A stretch of DNA of 64,000 nucleotides from Candidatus Paraprochloron terpiosi LD05 (lineage in GTDB: Bacteria > Cyanobacteriota > Cyanobacteriia > Cyanobacteriales > Prochloraceae), in NCBI GenBank assembly GCA_018141785.1, contig CP073341.1:3025261-3089260 (forward strand), read 5' to 3'. The notes under the pieces are model-generated. The model was not told the DNA's origin and searched no databases. It saw nothing but the letters and a program-made list of their open reading frames with translations. Positions 8,810 to 33,611 of this stretch are shown here, piece by piece. The position numbers and the translations under genes are program-made. Numbering within the stretch: position 1 is the first letter of the stretch; every line of letters starts with the position of its first letter.

Positions 8810-9682
8810 CTACGTACAGACATAATAGCCCCAATCCGCATCTATATTCCGCCCTGGAGAAATACACTCAAAGAACTCAATTTGACCGTTCCACATGATT
8901 CCAATGGTATTGAACCAATCACTTGCGTAGGGTGCAAAACTTACTACCCCTATTGAGTTACAACTAGAAATTATATGTGTTGCGATATCGGTCATAAATA
9001 GGGCGGACGACATTATATCGTCTACTCCGCGACCATTTATCGCGAAAATATGGCTCTTAGAGCGACCAGCAGGATATTCTGAGTATTGGTGAGCACGAGT
9101 CTCAGAATAAACTAGGTTTGCGTTATTTACCCCATTTATCTTTTGTTCACCATAAGAAATAGCAGATTGGCACTCATTCGCATTTGCTACTAAAGGCTCT
9201 GTAATGCACTTTCTATCTGTAACATAACCCCACCTATTATATGCTGGGAGATCACACTTAAATATCCCAATCAGACCGTTCCACATGATTCCAAACTTTT
9301 TGTAAGAAAAGATGTGGTAGGGTTCGCCAGGAGATTTTTCATATACTGCAAAATCCACTACCCCTATTGAATTGCAACTAGAAATTATACGTGTTGCGAT
9401 ATCGACCATAAATAGGGGGGACGACATTATATCGTCTGCTCCGCGACCATTTATCGCGAAGCTAAGGCCCTTAGAACGACCTTCGGGATATTCCGAGTAT
9501 CCGTGAGCATAAGTATGAGTAGGAAGAACTATGCTGGCGTAATCGAACCCATTTATCTTTTGTTCACCATAAGAAATAGCAGATTGGCACTCATTCGCAT
9601 TTGCTATTAGGGGCGTGGTAACAATAGCTGATATACTTGTAAATGCAAACAAAGGCAACAAAGTCTGTAACTTTACTTTCAT
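8810..9682 (-). CDS. Secreted protein of unknown function with an internal tandem duplication
   Basis: 290 residues with a clear signal peptide (about 1-28, ending IANA-NE). The mature part is two copies of one domain, about residues 30-160 and 172-290. Each begins NECQSAISYGEQKING and contains SEYPxGRSK, FAINGRG and SSCNSIGVV blocks, and ends near GIMWNGxIxxF. The DNA of the two units (about 8940-9190 and 9360-9610) is still very similar, so the duplication is recent. Each unit keeps a few cysteines, which may form disulfides. I do not recognise the family. It is convergent with the pentapeptide gene. Confidence 0.7.
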   Translation of the reverse strand: MKVKLQTLLPLFAFTSISAIVTTPLIANANECQSAISYGEQKINGFDYASIVLPTHTYAHGYSEYPEGRSKGLSFAINGRGADDIMSSPLFMVDIATRIISSCNSIGVVDFAVYEKSPGEPYHIFSYKKFGIMWNGLIGIFKCDLPAYNRWGYVTDRKCITEPLVANANECQSAISYGEQKINGVNNANLVYSETRAHQYSEYPAGRSKSHIFAINGRGVDDIMSSALFMTDIATHIISSCNSIGVVSFAPYASDWFNTIGIMWNGQIEFFECISPGRNIDADWGYYVCT

Positions 9683-9876
9683 ATATCCTATTTAAAGCCT
9701 GATTACAGGATTGCCCTTATGGTAGCAAATGCTCCAGACATCCTTCAAGGGTGGAATGATAGGTAGACATTGCTGGTATTGCCTTAATGTTTTACCTAGC
9801 AATATCCACCACAGTTTACACTCCCCTAAAGAGAGAATCATCAGGCAAAATCAGCGTTTATCTGCGGTTTCCTATA

Positions 9877-10356
9877 TTAAGCAGCAGCCACCAAACTCTC
9901 CCCCAGGGGCTGCCAGCGGAAATAGCGATCGCCTCCCATCTCCAAAACCACTTTAATCCTGGGTTCTAACTGGGGCAGGTTCACCAAATACTCCACTTCA
10001 GTGCGAGAAAGAATCTGTCCTTCAATAATCCACAACACCAAACCCTTGGACTGGGGAGAGAGTGTGTCTAGGTGAGAAGTAGCGATGGCTGGAACATAAT
10101 AAACCGCACCTACAGCCGCACTTTGGGCGATATTTTTTTTCCCTAAGTGAGCAGGGCGCACCCCGTGGACCCCCATTAAATAAGCCCCCAGATCCCCCAA
10201 TCCCCTAGCAGTGAGGTTTAATGTGTTGTAACCATGAGCACGCAAACGTCGTTGATATCTTCCCTCAAAACCCCCTTCCAAAGGGACGTAAACCCCTAAA
10301 GACTTAGACTTTTCCAAGTCCCGGAGGAATGATTTGCCAGTGGTAATTAGAGCCAT
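9877..10356 (-). CDS. ndhN: NAD(P)H-quinone oxidoreductase subunit N (NDH-1)
   Basis: 159 residues, the normal length of NdhN, a peripheral subunit found in cyanobacterial and chloroplast NDH-1 and absent from E. coli complex I. Recognisable segments are MALITTGKSFLRDLEKS at the start, the middle GLGDLGAYLMGVHGVRPAHLG and the end MGGDRYFRWQPL. It supports cyclic electron flow and respiration at the thylakoid membrane. It is divergent from the ribosomal cluster, the typical cyanobacterial neighbourhood. Confidence 0.93.
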   Translation of the reverse strand: MALITTGKSFLRDLEKSKSLGVYVPLEGGFEGRYQRRLRAHGYNTLNLTARGLGDLGAYLMGVHGVRPAHLGKKNIAQSAAVGAVYYVPAIATSHLDTLSPQSKGLVLWIIEGQILSRTEVEYLVNLPQLEPRIKVVLEMGGDRYFRWQPLGESLVAAA

Positions 10357-10477
10357 TTTTGCCTTAAACTTTATTTACAATGATTGTATAGCGCCTTCGC
10401 GCAGGTGTGGGGTGTGTTGTTTGATAAAAGTTTGAGTAATCGTTTGCTCTAAAACCACGCCAGAAAACCTATCTTCC

Positions 10478-10510
10478 CCTCTCTGCGACTCTGCGCCTCT
10501 GTGTGAAACA
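10478..10510 (-). repeat. Dispersed CACGCAGAG-type repeat (reverse orientation)
   Basis: Reads on the minus strand as TGTTTCACACAGAGGCGCAG followed by AGTCGCAGAGAGG. Same family as the copies near 7057, 36164 and 38660. Confidence 0.65.
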
Positions 10511-10540
10511 TTCCAACGAAAAAAATTTTTTCCAAACCCC

Positions 10541-10569
10541 TTGCTTTTTTCCCCACCATGATTTACAAT
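10541..10569 (+). promoter_or_regulatory. Sigma70-type promoter candidate for the S10 cluster
   Basis: TTGCTT at 10541-10546, 17-base spacer, TACAAT at 10564-10569. It lies about 250 bases before rplC in the long leader and faces the right way. No transcript data are available. Confidence 0.45.
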
Positions 10570-10816
10570 GGGTGATTGTGACCAAAAAAGGCTGTATAGC
10601 CACCAAAAGTCACTACAGATCCAGAAATGGAGCAAAAGCCTCCGCGAGATACTGAGGAAAAATTTCCTTAAGTCTCAAGGAACAAAGGCTAACATAGTAG
10701 CCACTTGTAGCGGTAAAATTACCTCACCCTGTGGTTTTAACTATCATCATCACTTCCAAAAAAAAAGCTGTATAGCGCCAAAGTCCTGTTGTCTAGCAAG
10801 TAGAGGTGCTCTAACC

Positions 10817-11455
10817 GTGTCCTTCGGTATCTTCGGCACAAAACTGGGCATGACCCAAATCTTTGACAGGGAAACAGGTTCTGCCATTCCCGTCACCGTG
10901 GTTCAAGCCGGTCCATGTGTAGTAACCCAAATCAAAACCAAAGAAACTGACGGCTATACTTCAGTCCAAATTGGCTATGGAGAAGTAAAGGAAAAAGCCC
11001 TCAGCAAACCGGAACTGGGACATTTGAGCAAAGCAGGTGCCAAACCTTTGCGTCATTTGAAAGAATATCGCCTTCCTGAAACCAGCCCATATCAATTAGG
11101 TCAAACCCTGAAAGCTGATATATTTAGCGTTGGTCAAATAGTAGACGTAACGGGAACCAGTATGGGGCGTGGTTTTGCGGGCTATCAAAAACGGCACAAC
11201 TTTAAACGGGGTTCCATGACTCACGGTTCCAAAAACCATCGTTTACCCGGTTCCACTGGTGCAGGAACCACCCCAGGTAGGGTGTATCCCGGTAAGAAAA
11301 TGGCTGGACGCTACGGTGGTAGTCAGGTAACAACTCGCAAACTGCAAGTAGTCCAAATCGATGCAGAACGGAACCTCCTGCTGATAAAAGGAGCAGTACC
11401 AGGTAAACCGGGGGGTTTATTGAATATCGTACCCACCAAAAAAGTCGGTAAATAG
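10817..11455 (+). CDS. rplC: 50S ribosomal protein L3
   Basis: 212 residues from GTG 10817, chosen because the family begins (M)[15 protein letters not shown]. The open frame upstream to 10568 has no L3 likeness. The conserved core [20 protein letters not shown], which holds the peptidyl-transferase-side loop, is complete, followed by [21 protein letters not shown]3 is an early assembly protein of the large subunit. It is the first gene of the cluster, 2 bp before rplD. There is no rpsJ before it; in cyanobacteria S10 lies elsewhere, with tuf. Confidence 0.97.
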
Positions 11456-27303: not shown

Positions 27304-28431
27304 ATGCTGGAAAAAGTAGAACTTTATAACTTTAAAAGTCATCAATCTACAAAACTTAGATTGGACGATTCACGCCTACATGCAATAGTAGGGCAAAACA
27401 GTTCTGGTAAAACATCGATTTTAGAAGCCTTGCATGCTTTCAGTCGCCTTGCGCATTTACCATTCAATAGGGTTTTTGGCTATCAAAAATCGCCTGAATT
27501 CATTATGACAGTAGGACAAGAGCAACTGTCTGTGACTGGAAGCGGTTTTTGGGGGTACCAGAATAACAAAAAAAACTGGAAAGCTTCTTACAGCTTTCAA
27601 CGGAAAGGTGGTAATTATTGGTATCCAACAGCAACATGGAATATCGCTCAAAATGAGGGAAGTGTAAAAGGATGGAACGCATCGTTGAAACATGCTCCAG
27701 ATCCCATACCCATAGCTTTGAGATATGCAGTTCATCTCAAGTTAGTAGCTACCATCCTCGCCAAAGCAGCTTACAGTGATGCAGTTACCCCACGAGTTGA
27801 ATTTGATGGTTCAGGTTTAGCACCTACTTTGGACTATCTTCGTGACGAAGCCCTAGACAAATTTCAATTGTTAGAGGAAATGTTGCAACGGATTGTCCCA
27901 GGTGTTCAGAAAGTAGGAATAAGAAGAGCTAGGGTGACAATCAATCGCCAACGCTTAATTGAAGTTGATGGAAAGTCTATCTCATACGAAGAAAGTCAGG
28001 AAATAGCGGGCCAAGAAGTAGTTCTAGATATGAATATAGGTGAGCGGATTCCTCCCCATGCTATTAGTGAAGGAACAATTCTAACCCTGAGATTACTCAC
28101 TGTTTTAGTGAATCCTCATCAACCGAACTTAGTATTACTGGATGATATTGAGCAAGGACTTCATCCCAAAGCGCAACGAGAATTGATTGGTGTTTTCAAG
28201 GAAATTATTCAAGCCAATAAAAATATCCAAATTATTTTTTCTTCTCACTCTCCCTATATTGTGGATGAACTTGTTCCTTCTCAAGTTCATGTATTAAGTA
28301 ACGCTAATTCTGGTTTTACTTGTTCCAAGCGATTGGATGAACATCCAGATGTGGAATGGGCAATACAAACTTTAACTACAGGGGAGTTTTGGGATGCTGA
28401 AGGAGAGGATTGGGTGGTAACTAATGATTGA
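27304..28431 (+). CDS. OLD/RecF-like ABC-type ATPase
   Basis: 375 residues with an SMC/RecF-like split ATPase. Walker A GQNSSGKTSILEAL (about 30-43), an LRLLTVL signature helix near 262, Walker B LVLLDDIEQGLHPKAQ (about 275-290) and switch histidine IIFSSHSPYIVDEL (about 308-321). There is no TOPRIM domain in this chain, so it resembles the ATPase halves of two-gene defence modules where a nuclease partner follows. The next frame, overlapping the stop by 8 bp, is such a partner start but is cut short. Function is inferred from architecture only. Confidence 0.8.
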   Translation: MLEKVELYNFKSHQSTKLRLDDSRLHAIVGQNSSGKTSILEALHAFSRLAHLPFNRVFGYQKSPEFIMTVGQEQLSVTGSGFWGYQNNKKNWKASYSFQRKGGNYWYPTATWNIAQNEGSVKGWNASLKHAPDPIPIALRYAVHLKLVATILAKAAYSDAVTPRVEFDGSGLAPTLDYLRDEALDKFQLLEEMLQRIVPGVQKVGIRRARVTINRQRLIEVDGKSISYEESQEIAGQEVVLDMNIGERIPPHAISEGTILTLRLLTVLVNPHQPNLVLLDDIEQGLHPKAQRELIGVFKEIIQANKNIQIIFSSHSPYIVDELVPSQVHVLSNANSGFTCSKRLDEHPDVEWAIQTLTTGEFWDAEGEDWVVTND

Positions 28432-28545: not shown

Positions 28546-28926
28546 TTAGCTGGAGAGGGGACGGATCATGGGTCGCTCAATTCGTTGCAGGTTGTGATGG
28601 TGAGGGATGAGGAAGTCTAAGACAGTTTGGCAGGCAGCAGCGGGATTGGCACGCTCGCCACAGGTAAAGAGATCCAGGGCGGCGTATTGTTGTTCGGGCC
28701 AGGTGTGGAGAGATAGGTGGGATTCCCTGAGCAGGAGGAGGACGGTGGCCCCTTGGGGACGAAATTGGTGGCGTTGCGATTGCAACACGGACAAGTTACC
28801 CCGTTCGGCAGCGGTAATTAGTATATTTTCTAAGATTTGTGCATTATCAAGGCGATCCCTCGGACAACCATAACAGTCCACCAACCAATGGCTTCCCGTC
28901 GTGCTTCCGATCACGATGTCACCCAT
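28546..28926 (-). CDS. speD: S-adenosylmethionine decarboxylase proenzyme (prokaryotic type)
   Basis: 126 residues, the normal length for the short SpeD1B type. The self-processing site ESHLSLHTWPE (about 68-78) contains the serine that becomes the pyruvoyl group; nearby HTWPE and the CG in LFTCGERANP (about 87-96) are catalytic family residues. It makes decarboxylated AdoMet for aminopropyl transfer. It ends an apparent minus-strand operon with a DUF4178 gene and a membrane spermidine-synthase-like gene. Confidence 0.9.
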   Translation of the reverse strand: MGDIVIGSTTGSHWLVDCYGCPRDRLDNAQILENILITAAERGNLSVLQSQRHQFRPQGATVLLLLRESHLSLHTWPEQQYAALDLFTCGERANPAAACQTVLDFLIPHHHNLQRIERPMIRPLSS

Positions 28927-28947
28927 GGTGTTGTGTTACCCATTTCC

Positions 28948-29559
28948 CTATCGATAAACACTTTGGCCATCTCCTGGCAAAATTCGGAGCGATCTCGGTG
29001 AAATGGCACGACCAGCTGTGATTTCCCGCTTCCCCCCCCAATCTTCAATGGACAATACCAAATCGTTGGACCCCTCATAATCGTAGTACTGACACTGTTC
29101 GGCTGTGCGTTGTCCAGTGGAAGTCAAGCGGGTCATTGTGGCTTCGCTCGCTTCTTTCAGACGGTATTCATTACCTTGATACGTTAATTGTTTTGGTGGA
29201 TCGCCGCTAATTTCTAAATCCTGGACCGGATCTAACAAACAGGTTTCCAAGGCATCATCTTCTTGCACGGATAACCATGCGGTGCGTTCACCCAATTGCA
29301 ATAAATATTCCATCCAAACAAACCCATCGTCGTTATAGGTCAGCTTGCCTTCCACAATCCAATCTTCGTGAAAATATTGCACCACGTCTCCAATGCGCAG
29401 ATCGAACAGAATGGCCGTGGAATCGGGGGCATATTGGCGGCGACCCGCGCCCCCAGCATCAGACTTTTCCCGTTGACCTGCCCCTGAGAATTGATTCTGG
29501 TTGTTCAAAATATAAATTAGGGCGATCGCAACAACAGCACAAATGATAAGCACAAACAT
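28948..29559 (-). CDS. DUF4178-type protein with N-terminal membrane anchor
   Basis: 203 residues: one membrane helix (about 2-18), a short low-complexity linker, then a domain with the DUF4178 pattern, including LRIGDVVQYFHEDWIVEGKL and a later YQGNEYRLKEASEA. It lies 21 bp before speD and 74 bp after the spermidine-synthase-like gene. DUF4178 proteins often occur with SpeD and membrane-fused SpeE-like proteins; the biochemical role is unknown. Confidence 0.72.
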   Translation of the reverse strand: MFVLIICAVVAIALIYILNNQNQFSGAGQREKSDAGGAGRRQYAPDSTAILFDLRIGDVVQYFHEDWIVEGKLTYNDDGFVWMEYLLQLGERTAWLSVQEDDALETCLLDPVQDLEISGDPPKQLTYQGNEYRLKEASEATMTRLTSTGQRTAEQCQYYDYEGSNDLVLSIEDWGGKREITAGRAISPRSLRILPGDGQSVYR

Positions 29560-29633
29560 AGGTATAACCTGAGATCAATAGTTTTTTTTAGGGATAAACC
29601 ACCTGTGCGCCCATGCGGCCCAGATTTCACATA

Positions 29634-31229
29634 TCAATACCATTGCCAACGGCGATCCCGTTGATATTGGGGCAAGATCGGGTGGCTGAGGCGATTGATT
29701 TGGATGGTGTCGAGATCCCATTGTTCATCCTTGGGCAGGGCAAAGAGGGCAGGCAATAATTCTGGGGTTAAAAATTTGGAGGAGATGGGAATGGTGAGCT
29801 GGTCCAGGACGATCGCTTTGGAGCTAGCTAACACAAATCCCCAGGGTCCAAAACTGGGAATGTCAACCCGATAAGGATAGGTTTGAAACCCACTAGCTGC
29901 CAAGGTTTTCACAATGCAAGCAAAGGCTTTGGGAGCAAAATAGGGACTGGAGGCTTGGGTAACCATCGCGCCGTTGGGGGCTAGGTGCGATCGCAATTGT
30001 CGATAAAATCCATCGGCGTACAATTTTGCCAAGCCATCGCGATCAGGATCAGGGAAATCAGCAATAACCACATCAAAGGTTGCCAGCAAATCCCGCACCA
30101 ACTGAAACGCATCCCCAAACTTGATGGTGACCCGTGGATCCTCAAAGGATCGATGATTCGCCGCCACCAATGCCGGATGGGATCGCCCTAACCGCACCAC
30201 TGCCGGGTCCAACTCCAACACCGTCACCGTTTCCACTCCCGGCCACCGCAAAATCTCCCGCAATGCCAACCCATCCCCCGCTCCCAACAACAACACTCGC
30301 CTTGGCACATCCACTGCCGCTAACACGGGATAGGTCAGCGCCTCATGGTAGCGATATTCATCAGCGGTGGAAAATTGCAAATCCCCATCCAAAAACAGCC
30401 GCGTATCCCCCTCGCGCTGGGTGATCACAATATGCTGATATTGACTGTCCTCTCGATGAATAATTGCTGCCCGATACAGCCTATTTTCCAATGTATTACC
30501 CAGGGGCACCGTGAGAGGAGCCAGCAATGCCAAACCTAAGGCGATAGCCAACCCAGCCCGGCCCCAACGTTTGATCCTTGGCACGGTCTTACTAAAAACT
30601 TGGGCGATCGCTACCACCATCACCGCTGGGATTGCCCCCAAACAAGCCGCCGCCGGGAACATCCCCAGCCAAGGCAACAATACCAATGGAAAAGCGATCG
30701 CCCCTACCAACGCTCCGGCATAATCCAGGGCCAGCACTCCCGCCAATGCCTCTTTTACCGACGAATCCCGCTCCAGCAGACGGGTTAACAGGGGCACTTC
30801 CATTCCCGCTAAGATACCTAAAAATAACGTTGCCAAAGCCAACCCCAACCATAGCCAGCCCCCCGCCACAAACAACGCAAATAACCCCAATGGCATTAGA
30901 GCGATCGCCGGAGCCATGGCCAATTCTACTTGAATAAATGCCCGCAGCAAGCCCTGTCTATTATCAGGATCCTGAGATATCGCCACAAACTGACTGGCAT
31001 AGGAACCCAACCCCATGGCTGCCAAAAAGCCTCCGACAGCCACCCCATAAGCAAGGGCATGATCCCCTACTAAATAACTGGTCAGCCCCCCCAACAACAA
31101 TTCTGTGGCCAAACCACAGGCGGAAGAAACTGCCGCTGCCAGCAATACCACACTGCGCTGTCGTCGCCCCAACTCTAAATAATCTTGATCCAAATAGCTC
31201 ACCGTCCTACTTGCCACCGCCAGGGCCAC
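29634..31229 (-). CDS. Membrane-fused spermidine-synthase-like aminopropyltransferase
   Basis: 531 residues. The first 245 hold seven or eight membrane helices; the rest is a spermidine-synthase Rossmann fold. RVLLLGAGDGLALREIL (about 310-326) is the nucleotide-binding glycine loop, VLELDPAVVRLGRSHP follows, and DVVIADFPDPDRDGLAKLY (about 380-398) carries the family acidic residues. With speD in the same operon it probably uses decarboxylated AdoMet; the acceptor may be a polyamine or a membrane substrate. The DNA is visibly more G+C rich than the ribosomal part and has several HIP1 octamers. Confidence 0.85.
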   Translation of the reverse strand: MALAVASRTVSYLDQDYLELGRRQRSVVLLAAAVSSACGLATELLLGGLTSYLVGDHALAYGVAVGGFLAAMGLGSYASQFVAISQDPDNRQGLLRAFIQVELAMAPAIALMPLGLFALFVAGGWLWLGLALATLFLGILAGMEVPLLTRLLERDSSVKEALAGVLALDYAGALVGAIAFPLVLLPWLGMFPAAACLGAIPAVMVVAIAQVFSKTVPRIKRWGRAGLAIALGLALLAPLTVPLGNTLENRLYRAAIIHREDSQYQHIVITQREGDTRLFLDGDLQFSTADEYRYHEALTYPVLAAVDVPRRVLLLGAGDGLALREILRWPGVETVTVLELDPAVVRLGRSHPALVAANHRSFEDPRVTIKFGDAFQLVRDLLATFDVVIADFPDPDRDGLAKLYADGFYRQLRSHLAPNGAMVTQASSPYFAPKAFACIVKTLAASGFQTYPYRVDIPSFGPWGFVLASSKAIVLDQLTIPISSKFLTPELLPALFALPKDEQWDLDTIQINRLSHPILPQYQRDRRWQWY

Positions 31230-31386
31230 CGCCGCGAAAGCTTCCCCCCGAACGGCGTTCCCTCGACGAAGGCACCGGATTGTAACGCCAGCCCCGATAG
31301 CCAGGTGTGGAGCACTGGTAGAAAATCGCCAGCACCATGATGATTAGAAAGCCCAACAGGGCGTAGCGAGTAATAATGGGATACAT
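31207..31386 (-). CDS. Small membrane protein at the head of the speD operon
   Basis: 59 residues from ATG 31386: one membrane helix (about 9-25, LLGFLIIMVLAIFYQCS) and a Gly/Arg-rich tail (SGGSFRGGGPGGGK). It overlaps the synthase-like gene by 23 bp in another frame, suggesting coupling. Similar small helix-plus-Gly-rich proteins accompany DUF4178/SpeE-like genes. I cannot assign a named family. Confidence 0.5.
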   Translation of the reverse strand: MYPIITRYALLGFLIIMVLAIFYQCSTPGYRGWRYNPVPSSRERRSGGSFRGGGPGGGK

Positions 31387-31470: not shown

Positions 31471-31857
31471 TCACCACCGCACGATCTAAAAAAAGGCTCC
31501 CACTACCTTCTCTGTTTGAACGCAACTTGGTATTAGACAATCGACCTCAGCGAAGGAAAGGTATTGTCAGAGCATATTGCTCCTTAGGCTCCGCTCTAAT
31601 TCAAGTGAAGAACCCGATCGAATTAGAAATCCCAAAGTAGTGCTCGATCTGCTGACAGGTGGGAAGAAACAAATCTGGAATGCCTAAAACAAAGAGGTAA
31701 AAATACTGTTGTGACAGCTTATCTTGATGAAATCGAGCAACGATTGATTCCAGTTATTACCTGAGTTTATAAATGGTTAAAATATGGCGAGAATTAGCAG
31801 ATCCAAACAAGCATGTGGACTTCATGTCAACGAGTAACGTGGGTGAAGTTCCGGTAG
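31471..31857. other. Gap with no recognised gene
   Basis: 387 bases. A stretch near 31676-31762 reads NLECLKQRGKNTVVTAYLDE on the plus strand and stops, and one at 31773 begins MVKIWRELADPNKHVDFM and stops after 20 codons or so. The latter is a degraded copy of the small gene at 32488. No promoter or RNA is obvious. Confidence 0.4.
31773..31826 (+). repeat. Direct repeat, left copy (5' end of the gene at 32488)
   Basis: 54 bases from ATGGTTAAAATATGGCG, nearly the same as 32488-32541. The two copies bracket the MORN remnant. Right copy is a small open reading frame; this left one diverges after the shared part. Confidence 0.7.
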
Positions 31858-32487
31858 AAGCATCTCCAAACAACTACCTTTAGCAATGGGGATCGCTGTA
31901 AGGGAACTATAAGTAAAGGTAGCCTTAACGGTGAGGGTACTTGCACCTATGCTAACGGCAATCGCTACAGTGGCAGACTAAGAAATAATCAACCCGACGG
32001 CGAAGGCACTTATACATTTGCCAGTGGTGGTAAGTATACTGGTAGATTTAGCCAGGGTCAGTTTAATGGTAATGGTGAGCGAGTTTACGCCAATGGCAAT
32101 CGCTACAACGGTGAATTTCAAGCAGGTCAGCCCAACGGTCAAGGCACTTATATTTTTGCAGATGGCAGCCGCTATAAAGGGGAATTTAAGGATGGAGCCT
32201 TTAGCGGTCGAGGCACTTACACTAATACAGATGGTAGTCGTTATGAGGGACAATTTCAAGCTGGCAAGTTCAACGGAACCGGGACTTACACTTTTGCCAA
32301 TGGTGATCGCTGTCGGGGACGGTTTGAAAACGGCCAAATGAATGGATAGGGTACTTGTAATTATGCTGATGGAGAGGAATATGTTGGTGGATTTCGCCAG
32401 GGGAAACAGCATGGTAACGGTATCTATACCTTTGCTGATGGTACCCGTGTGGAAGGCACTTGGGATAATGGTGAGTTAAGACAATAA
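31858..32487 (+). pseudogene. MORN-repeat protein, lacking a start and with an internal stop
   Basis: About nine MORN units (consensus GxYxGxFxxGxxxGxGxYxxxxG) read in one frame: GEFQAGQPNGQGTYIFADGS, GEFKDGAFSGRGTYTNTDGS and so on. An in-frame TAG at about 32347 follows NGQMNG and the repeats go on in the same frame (GTCNYADGEEYVGGF). Upstream the frame is closed by a stop at 31855 with no ATG between. MORN proteins bind membranes or other proteins. It is truncated at the 5' end and broken inside. Confidence 0.75.
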
Positions 32488-32778: not shown

Positions 32779-33290
32779 CTAAGAAAAATTACCATTAGTA
32801 CTGTTACGAAAATTATTTCCTTCTTCGTACATTGATAGGTCATAAAATTTATTAGGAGCAGCTACTTGATTTTGATTTAACAATTCCAGAGACCACTTAG
32901 CGAGTTCCTGAACTTCCTTGTCCGTATCTTCAATAGCAAAGTACAATCTTTTATTAACTTGGGACATTAATTCGTAAATTTTAGTGAAGTCCCGGATCGC
33001 ATTTTTACGCGATTTTTAGCTTGCAGGGAGACAGTTAATGTTTGATTCAGAGGTTTGAGAGTGCGGATAGAAATTTGCGATATGGCCTCCAAAATTAAGC
33101 TGCGTTCTTAAGAATTTGTCTCCATCATCAATTGAACGAGAGGTGGTATTGCTCGAGATTCCCCCTCTTGTGCTAGTTCCCAAATTGCCTTCTCTCTAAT
33201 TGTGGGATCTGGCATCTGCAAATCTTCGATTAATTCTTCAATAATATCAACCGTAGTAAGAGGAGTACCTTCTGAGTGAATGTCTTATTT
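32779..33290 (-). pseudogene. HEAT-repeat protein remnant
   Basis: Minus-strand pieces in different frames: TTVDIIEELIEDLQMPDPTI and AIWELAQEGESRAIPPLVQL near 33130-33270, then after frame changes DFTKIYELMSQVNKRLYFAI and DTDKEVQELAKWSLELLNQ (32779-33000). These are HEAT-type helix pairs. At least two frame changes are needed. Only the last 62 codons form an intact open frame. Confidence 0.6.
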
Positions 33291-33611
33291 TTCAAAGTTT
33301 TGCGAGGATCTGTCGTTGGAAAATTTATAATACTCAAAAGTGTGGGTCAAGCCTTGAGCAAACAAGCCTTGAAACATCGCTCCATCTACCAGAGCAAATA
33401 AGCCAATCCAGAGCCATGTCTTGAGGGTTTTCGGTTGAGGAAGACCGTAGATAGCTGCTGCCGCCAGCACTAACAACCCCGCTGGCAGCAATCTTACCCC
33501 AGCCATGAAGAGAGGAGTGGTATTATCTAGGGTGGATTTCATGGCGACCATAGCTGTTCCCCAGAGGAAAAAGGGGGCGATGACTAAGGGTTTGGTGAGA
33601 TTTAATTGCAT
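33285..33611 (-). pseudogene. EamA/DMT-family permease, N-terminal fragment
   Basis: 108 residues with three membrane helices, starting MQLNLTKPLVIAPFFLWGTA and containing NTTPLFMAGVRLLPAGLLVL, as in the first half of ten-helix drug/metabolite transporters. After FAQGLTHT the frame becomes unrelated and stops, where family members continue through seven more helices. A deletion therefore joined it to the HEAT remnant. Not functional as a transporter. Confidence 0.7.

Follow-up and report, generated by a model that had tools for sequence, protein, structure and literature searches.

A SpeD-linked membrane aminopropyltransferase operon of Candidatus Paraprochloron terpiosi and a lysine-tailed envelope protein as its candidate substrate

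The substrate of the membrane-fused aminopropyltransferases (APTs), which are present in many bacterial phyla and have homologs throughout fungi (PMC12803844), has been an open question since the family was reported not to make spermidine. The same question is raised by an operon of Candidatus Paraprochloron terpiosi LD05, located in a stretch of 64,000 nucleotides (contig CP073341.1, positions 3,025,261 to 3,089,260; hereafter, the window) that is part of a cyanobacterial-type genome of 3.84 Mb in one contig. It is composed of four genes on the minus strand, transcribed in the order small Gly-rich protein, APT, DUF4178 protein and speD, which codes for S-adenosylmethionine (AdoMet) decarboxylase (Table 1). 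All four had been recognized as an operon in a sequence-only reading of the window, and all four were recovered. Our best model, to which we give an even chance, is that the APT, fed by SpeD, would aminopropylate the C-terminal Lys of the adjoining Gly-rich membrane protein. This linked protein is the point of interest and was not found described in the literature searched; the locus is otherwise a version of a described module.

Table 1. Positions of the operon genes and of the pieces at the insertion site (window coordinates), and of the Escherichia coli loci used for comparison; aa, amino acids; TM, transmembrane
Feature	Position	Strand	Remarks
AAA_21 ATPase, 375 aa, intact	27304-28431	+	adjoins insertion site
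Interrupted AAA-partner gene, N-terminal 38 aa	28424-28540	+	intact relative is 270 aa in L036
speD, class 1b AdoMet decarboxylase, 126 aa	28546-28926	-	TIGR03330, 122.5 bits (cut-off 75.65)
DUF4178 protein, 203 aa	28948-29559	-	PF13785, 124 bits; N-terminal TM helix and all-beta domain
Membrane-fused APT, 7 TM helices, at most 531 aa, start codon uncertain	29634-31229	-	NF002956/PRK03612, 543.5 bits (cut-off 472)
TM-anchored Gly-rich protein with C-terminal Lys, 59 aa	31207-31386	-	proposed acceptor
AAA-partner gene, C-terminal remnants (residues 124-137 and 195-261, frameshifted)	31533-31758	+	far side of operon
E. coli locus L228 (YgiB beside YgiC)	NC_000913 3179744-3181581		
E. coli locus L229 (YjfM beside YjfC)	NC_000913 4412387-4414191		

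The 59-aa protein, which matched no Pfam or NCBIfam family, has a C-terminus that reads RRSGGSFRGGGPGGGK, its final residues being GGGPGGGK. Relatives of the operon were taken from 80 GTDB contigs, cyanobacterial genomes and plasmids, and in them the APT is adjoined, across phyla, by a membrane-anchored protein whose last two residues are Gly-Lys or His-Lys and whose position varies. In cyanobacteria the tail gene lies just upstream of the APT, and the 24 tails collected there have G at -6 and -8 in all cases and F at -10 at a frequency of 0.96 (the last K is invariant by selection). In Bacteroidota, Acidobacteria, Planctomycetes and Proteobacteria, the tail gene (about 45-120 aa) precedes DUF350 (PF03994), and in Bacillota the Lys tail is the C-terminal end of DUF4178 itself, after a TM helix. 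The small tail proteins that were scanned gave no match to Pfam or NCBIfam families of this kind. In cyanobacteria (L036, 7410-8405, and homologs), the Lys-tailed gene comes after that of a conserved membrane protein of about 330 aa, which belongs to no known family and is missing from the window's genome.

Open reading frames (ORFs) with TM helices and ending in [GH]K were present on the same strand within 1.6 kb of the APT in 71 of 109 loci, compared with 4 of 109 on the opposite strand, none of 109 on the same strand 3 kb away and none of 24 loci with a soluble SpeE (both strands); the linkage has Fisher p-values of 7e-24 and 6e-10, not corrected for relatedness. Because this first tally had K in its rule, it was redone with a K-free rule (the TM ORF with the closest stop 5' of DUF350 or APT), which gave a terminal K in 35 of 43 proteins before DUF350 and 17 of 37 before the APT, against 12 of 113 controls. 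The terminal-K tally of the Bacillota set, where a tail follows DUF4178 and its TM helix, is circular, K being part of the search rule, and was not used as evidence. Outside the sample, four beta-proteobacterial genomes of Dechloromonas type carry the APT alone and DUF4178 elsewhere, and in 4/4 the gene directly after the distant DUF4178 codes for an anchored protein of 47-48 aa ending in WHK or YHK. Baaleninema has no tail gene beside the APT, and a 77-aa protein ending in FRGGGPGSGK follows a 331-aa partner elsewhere in its genome, and GPSHK is the ending of a 48-aa hypothetical protein that other annotators had placed between DUF4178 and DUF350 on a Novosphingobium plasmid. No earlier description of a C-terminal-Lys partner protein was found in the literature searched, which was mainly open-access.

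The gene content of the genome bears on what the APT could do. SpeD, the sole AdoMet_dc match of the genome, contains the motifs ESHLSLHTWPE and FTCGE, with the processing Ser and the catalytic His and Cys, when aligned with PDB entries 1tlu and 2iii. The APT is the single SpeE-fold match of the genome, scores below the cut-off of the soluble SpeE model TIGR00417 (141.7 bits versus 249.55), and no deoxyhypusine-synthase-type homolog was found in the genome, so that the membrane APT is the only predicted consumer of decarboxylated AdoMet (dcAdoMet) found there. This inventory, with no soluble SpeE in it, would also suit an enzyme that is the organism's spermidine or other free-polyamine synthase, the TM part being a mere anchor or exporter; the SpeE fold has complete catalytic residues and the NCBIfam name is polyamine aminopropyltransferase. 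Homologous bacterial fusions have nevertheless been reported to be experimentally uninvolved in spermidine or spermine synthesis (according to a 2025 paper, PMC12803844, citing Li 2019), five genomes (G007, G011, G019, G039 and G041) have a separate SpeE-fold gene besides the fusion, and a free-polyamine synthase leaves the conserved Lys-tailed protein unexplained, which makes this explanation unlikely.

The sequence-only reading had proposed a lipid or envelope molecule, instead of free putrescine, as the acceptor. That putrescine is not the acceptor agrees with the literature and with the single AdoMet decarboxylase and single SpeE-fold gene of this genome, and since an acceptor other than putrescine had been published, this part of the idea was not new. 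The lipid is not supported, as no lipid-related gene is linked to the operon, whereas a C-terminal-Lys protein is linked across phyla. A related explanation, in which the acceptor is a lipid or other small envelope amine and the Lys-tailed protein merely recruits or regulates the APT, would account for the fusion to a membrane domain and for the non-putrescine substrate proposed by others; it is distinctly improbable given that genes for lipid synthesis do not recur in the neighbourhoods examined and that what stays constant is the Lys ending a thin, Gly-rich tail.

An AlphaFold2 model of the APT has seven TM helices and a SpeE fold (mean predicted local distance difference test, pLDDT, 92.8), and its best Foldseek matches are polyamine and thermospermine synthases. 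The catalytic Asp, Tyr and Gly motifs (including D290, Y294, D319, D391 and D394) are kept in at least 74 of 75 APTs, suggesting that the family is under selection for catalysis; aminopropyl transfer activity is predicted for the enzyme. The loops on the N-terminal side of the membrane contain on average 1.8, 2.24, 2.8 and 3.56 Lys plus Arg, those on the other side 0.12, 0.35 and 0.71, and all 75 sequences agree with this positive-inside pattern; together with the seven helices, this predicts a cytoplasmic N-terminus and an extracytoplasmic catalytic domain. The reaction would thus occur outside the cytoplasm, as the exported nature of its partners also suggests. In the Bacillota proteins with DUF4178, a TM helix and a tail, 20 of the 22 that could be scored are N-in and 2 N-out, and their tails are therefore predicted to be outside. 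Acidic residues within the TM helices of the APT (E43, E102, E144, D169 and E248) are at least 96% conserved and might help to steer the Lys or the positively charged dcAdoMet. An amine oxidase that uses flavin adenine dinucleotide (FAD), with a twin-arginine translocation (Tat)-type (RR) signal and often a lipobox, recurs just downstream of the APT in many relatives (L102, L098, L141, L146 and others), and probably acts on the APT product outside the cytoplasm.

Aminopropyltransferases alkylate primary amines such as that of putrescine, and the side chain of Lys presents the same aminobutyl amine. In the proposed mechanism, SpeD would make dcAdoMet, from which the 7-TM APT would move the aminopropyl group onto the C-terminal Lys of the small anchored protein, whose GGGxxxGK tail, being thin and flexible, could fit into the narrow pocket of the SpeE fold. 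An envelope protein tipped with a covalently held, spermidine-like group would result, with DUF4178, and DUF350 in most relatives, as putative accessory membrane parts. The DUF4178 protein is encoded in single copy genome-wide, and its predicted fold (all-beta, pLDDT 82) had no significant match in a fold search of the PDB. The cellular role is probably envelope homeostasis. Extended to other phyla, the proposal becomes one of a widespread bacterial modification, in which an extracytoplasmic, SpeD-fed APT would aminopropylate the C-terminal Lys of a Gly-rich envelope protein that a Tat-exported amine oxidase would act on in many phyla; this broader version we advance more tentatively.

Several observations weigh against modification of the Lys tail by the APT. 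The loci are related, so that the Fisher p-values overstate their independence, and no tail gene was detected near the APT in L034/G041, L062, L074, L090, L092, L142, L144, L122, L129 and L130. DUF350 was not found in the genome, which makes the window's module incomplete compared with most relatives. A catalytic domain outside would require dcAdoMet to cross the membrane, and the topology of the window's 59-aa protein is ambiguous from its charges. Finally, a conserved C-terminal Lys could serve otherwise, in docking, in sorting or in an Lpp-like link to peptidoglycan. In the latter case, the Lys would be kept for covalent attachment in the style of Braun's lipoprotein, a protein of similar general design (small, anchored and ending in Lys), and the APT would modify something else; we regard this as very improbable, because the Lys goes with the APT in phylum after phylum, also in Bacillota, where DUF4178 itself ends in the tail, and accompanies APT partners even in split operons.

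Modification of the tail by the APT can be compared with systems already described. Clusters of AdoMet decarboxylase, membrane-APT fusion and DUF350, with an acceptor thought not to be putrescine, were reported by Li et al. 2019 (Biochem J 476:2579, as cited in PMC11237479 and PMC12803844). As far as those citations describe them, they resemble the operon in the linkage of a class 1b speD to a fusion that is membrane-embedded at its N-terminus and spermidine synthase (SpdSyn)-like at its C-terminus and in the non-putrescine acceptor, and differ in that the window's genome has no DUF350, a Lys-tailed small protein is part of the operon and the acceptor proposed here is a protein. Ravi et al. 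2024 (PMC11237479) described operons containing a 7TM-spermidine-synthase fusion, DUF350, DUF4178 and a lipoprotein, and suggested polyamine sensing or the aminopropylation of other substrates as their function. Their PspA-CesT/Tir-linked operon (with the lipoprotein 'Ctha_1186') shares the 7TM-SpdSyn fusion, DUF4178 and a small envelope protein with the window, which differs in having no PspA or CesT gene adjoining; the CesT/Tir-PspA dyad is not in the operon, and PspA was not searched for elsewhere in the genome. The parts of their main text consulted make no mention of a conserved C-terminal Lys. The linkage of speD, APT and DUF4178 that characterizes the described module is present in the window, recurs with the gene order unchanged in L041 and is found in fragmented form in L037. 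Matches to NF002956, DUF4178 and DUF350 also occur in Corynebacterium glutamicum.

In E. coli, YgiC and YjfC have been named peptide-spermidine ligases (Pederick 2023, as cited in PMC10948618). The DUF1190 lipoproteins YgiB and YjfM, encoded directly beside them, end in Gly-Gly (SSRSMGG and ARGHWGG), so that their C-termini are candidate substrates of these enzymes. The YgiB-YgiC and YjfL-YjfM-YjfC systems thus also pair an enzyme joining polyamine to peptide with a neighbouring envelope lipoprotein whose C-terminus is special, and yjfL, in the latter operon, is a DUF350 gene. The E. coli system consists of an ATP-grasp ligase and a C-terminal Gly-Gly, whereas the window has an aminopropyltransferase and a C-terminal Lys; the proposed Lys modification would be the counterpart of these ligases, and by analogy both would yield a polyamine-tipped C-terminus on an envelope protein. 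Aminopropyl units on lysine are also found in diatom silaffins, whose lysine side chains carry aminopropyl extensions (PMC3820600); these are eukaryotic proteins modified on internal lysines and involved in silica deposition.

The operon, whose neighbours are AAA_21, Uma2, a truncated EamA and MORN-like repeats, is inserted at its present site. Pieces of an AAA-partner gene are found on both of its flanks, so it sits within a split gene and has moved to this place. The sequence-only reading had noticed the truncated partner, here seen as cut to 38 aa next to an intact AAA ATPase, while the remnants on the far side went beyond it; its suggestion that the block was acquired or relocated is borne out by the insertion and by the high G+C at third codon positions (GC3) of three of the four genes. 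The higher G+C that it had ascribed to the whole block applies to the APT, speD and small genes (99th-100th percentile for G+C and GC3 among 195 genes of the genome; GC3, 99th), whereas DUF4178 reaches only the 78th-82nd (GC3, 82nd). No convincing direct repeats or insertion sequence (IS) were found at the insertion ends. The left junction is common to the window's genome and the congeneric G002, and L041 has an APT 81% identical and an identical gene order in a different genomic place. A source of the APT in another phylum was rejected, since the synthase tree places it inside a cyanobacterial clade (Shimodaira-Hasegawa-like approximate likelihood-ratio test, SH-aLRT, 100), which argues against recent uptake from another phylum; the donor of the block was most likely another cyanobacterium. 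Within the phylum the APT is patchily distributed, with about 19 of 194 genomes carrying it. Derivation of speD from the usual cyanobacterial spermidine pathway is unsupported, as the window SpeD, with those of L037 and L041, falls outside a 99-supported SpeD clade of the same order.

Other signs of rearrangement are seen around the operon and in its relatives. An EamA transporter is cut to 108 aa (window 33285-33611, minus strand) which, with the split AAA-partner gene, makes the region from 28.4 to 33.6 kb a rearranged stretch. Adjoining the insertion (window 31980-32480, plus strand) is a frame of about 150 aa with MORN-like repeats such as YANGNRYSGRL / GEFQAGQPNGQGTYIFADGSRY and an in-frame stop. 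In the near-identical congener G002 (L037, contig C244, 853-1805), the reading frame of DUF4178 is disrupted, with its final portion joined in frame to speD, by assembly error or decay, and in L038 (G039, 9663-10998) the APT gene is split by a 390-aa ORF resembling an IS200/IS605-type OrfB transposase. A genome of the same genus has a different, proteobacterial-type version of the module (L040, G001 contig C224, 5511-8407), composed of speD, a 212-aa membrane protein, a 77-aa protein ending in KVRGGGPGSGK and an APT 36% identical that groups with Rhizobium and Alteromonas in the tree.

A linked protein with nearly always Lys as its last residue offers a concrete and directly testable substrate candidate for the membrane APTs. 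If it is indeed their substrate, this would represent a new protein modification and a non-polyamine role for AdoMet decarboxylase, and would link polyamine chemistry to envelope maintenance.
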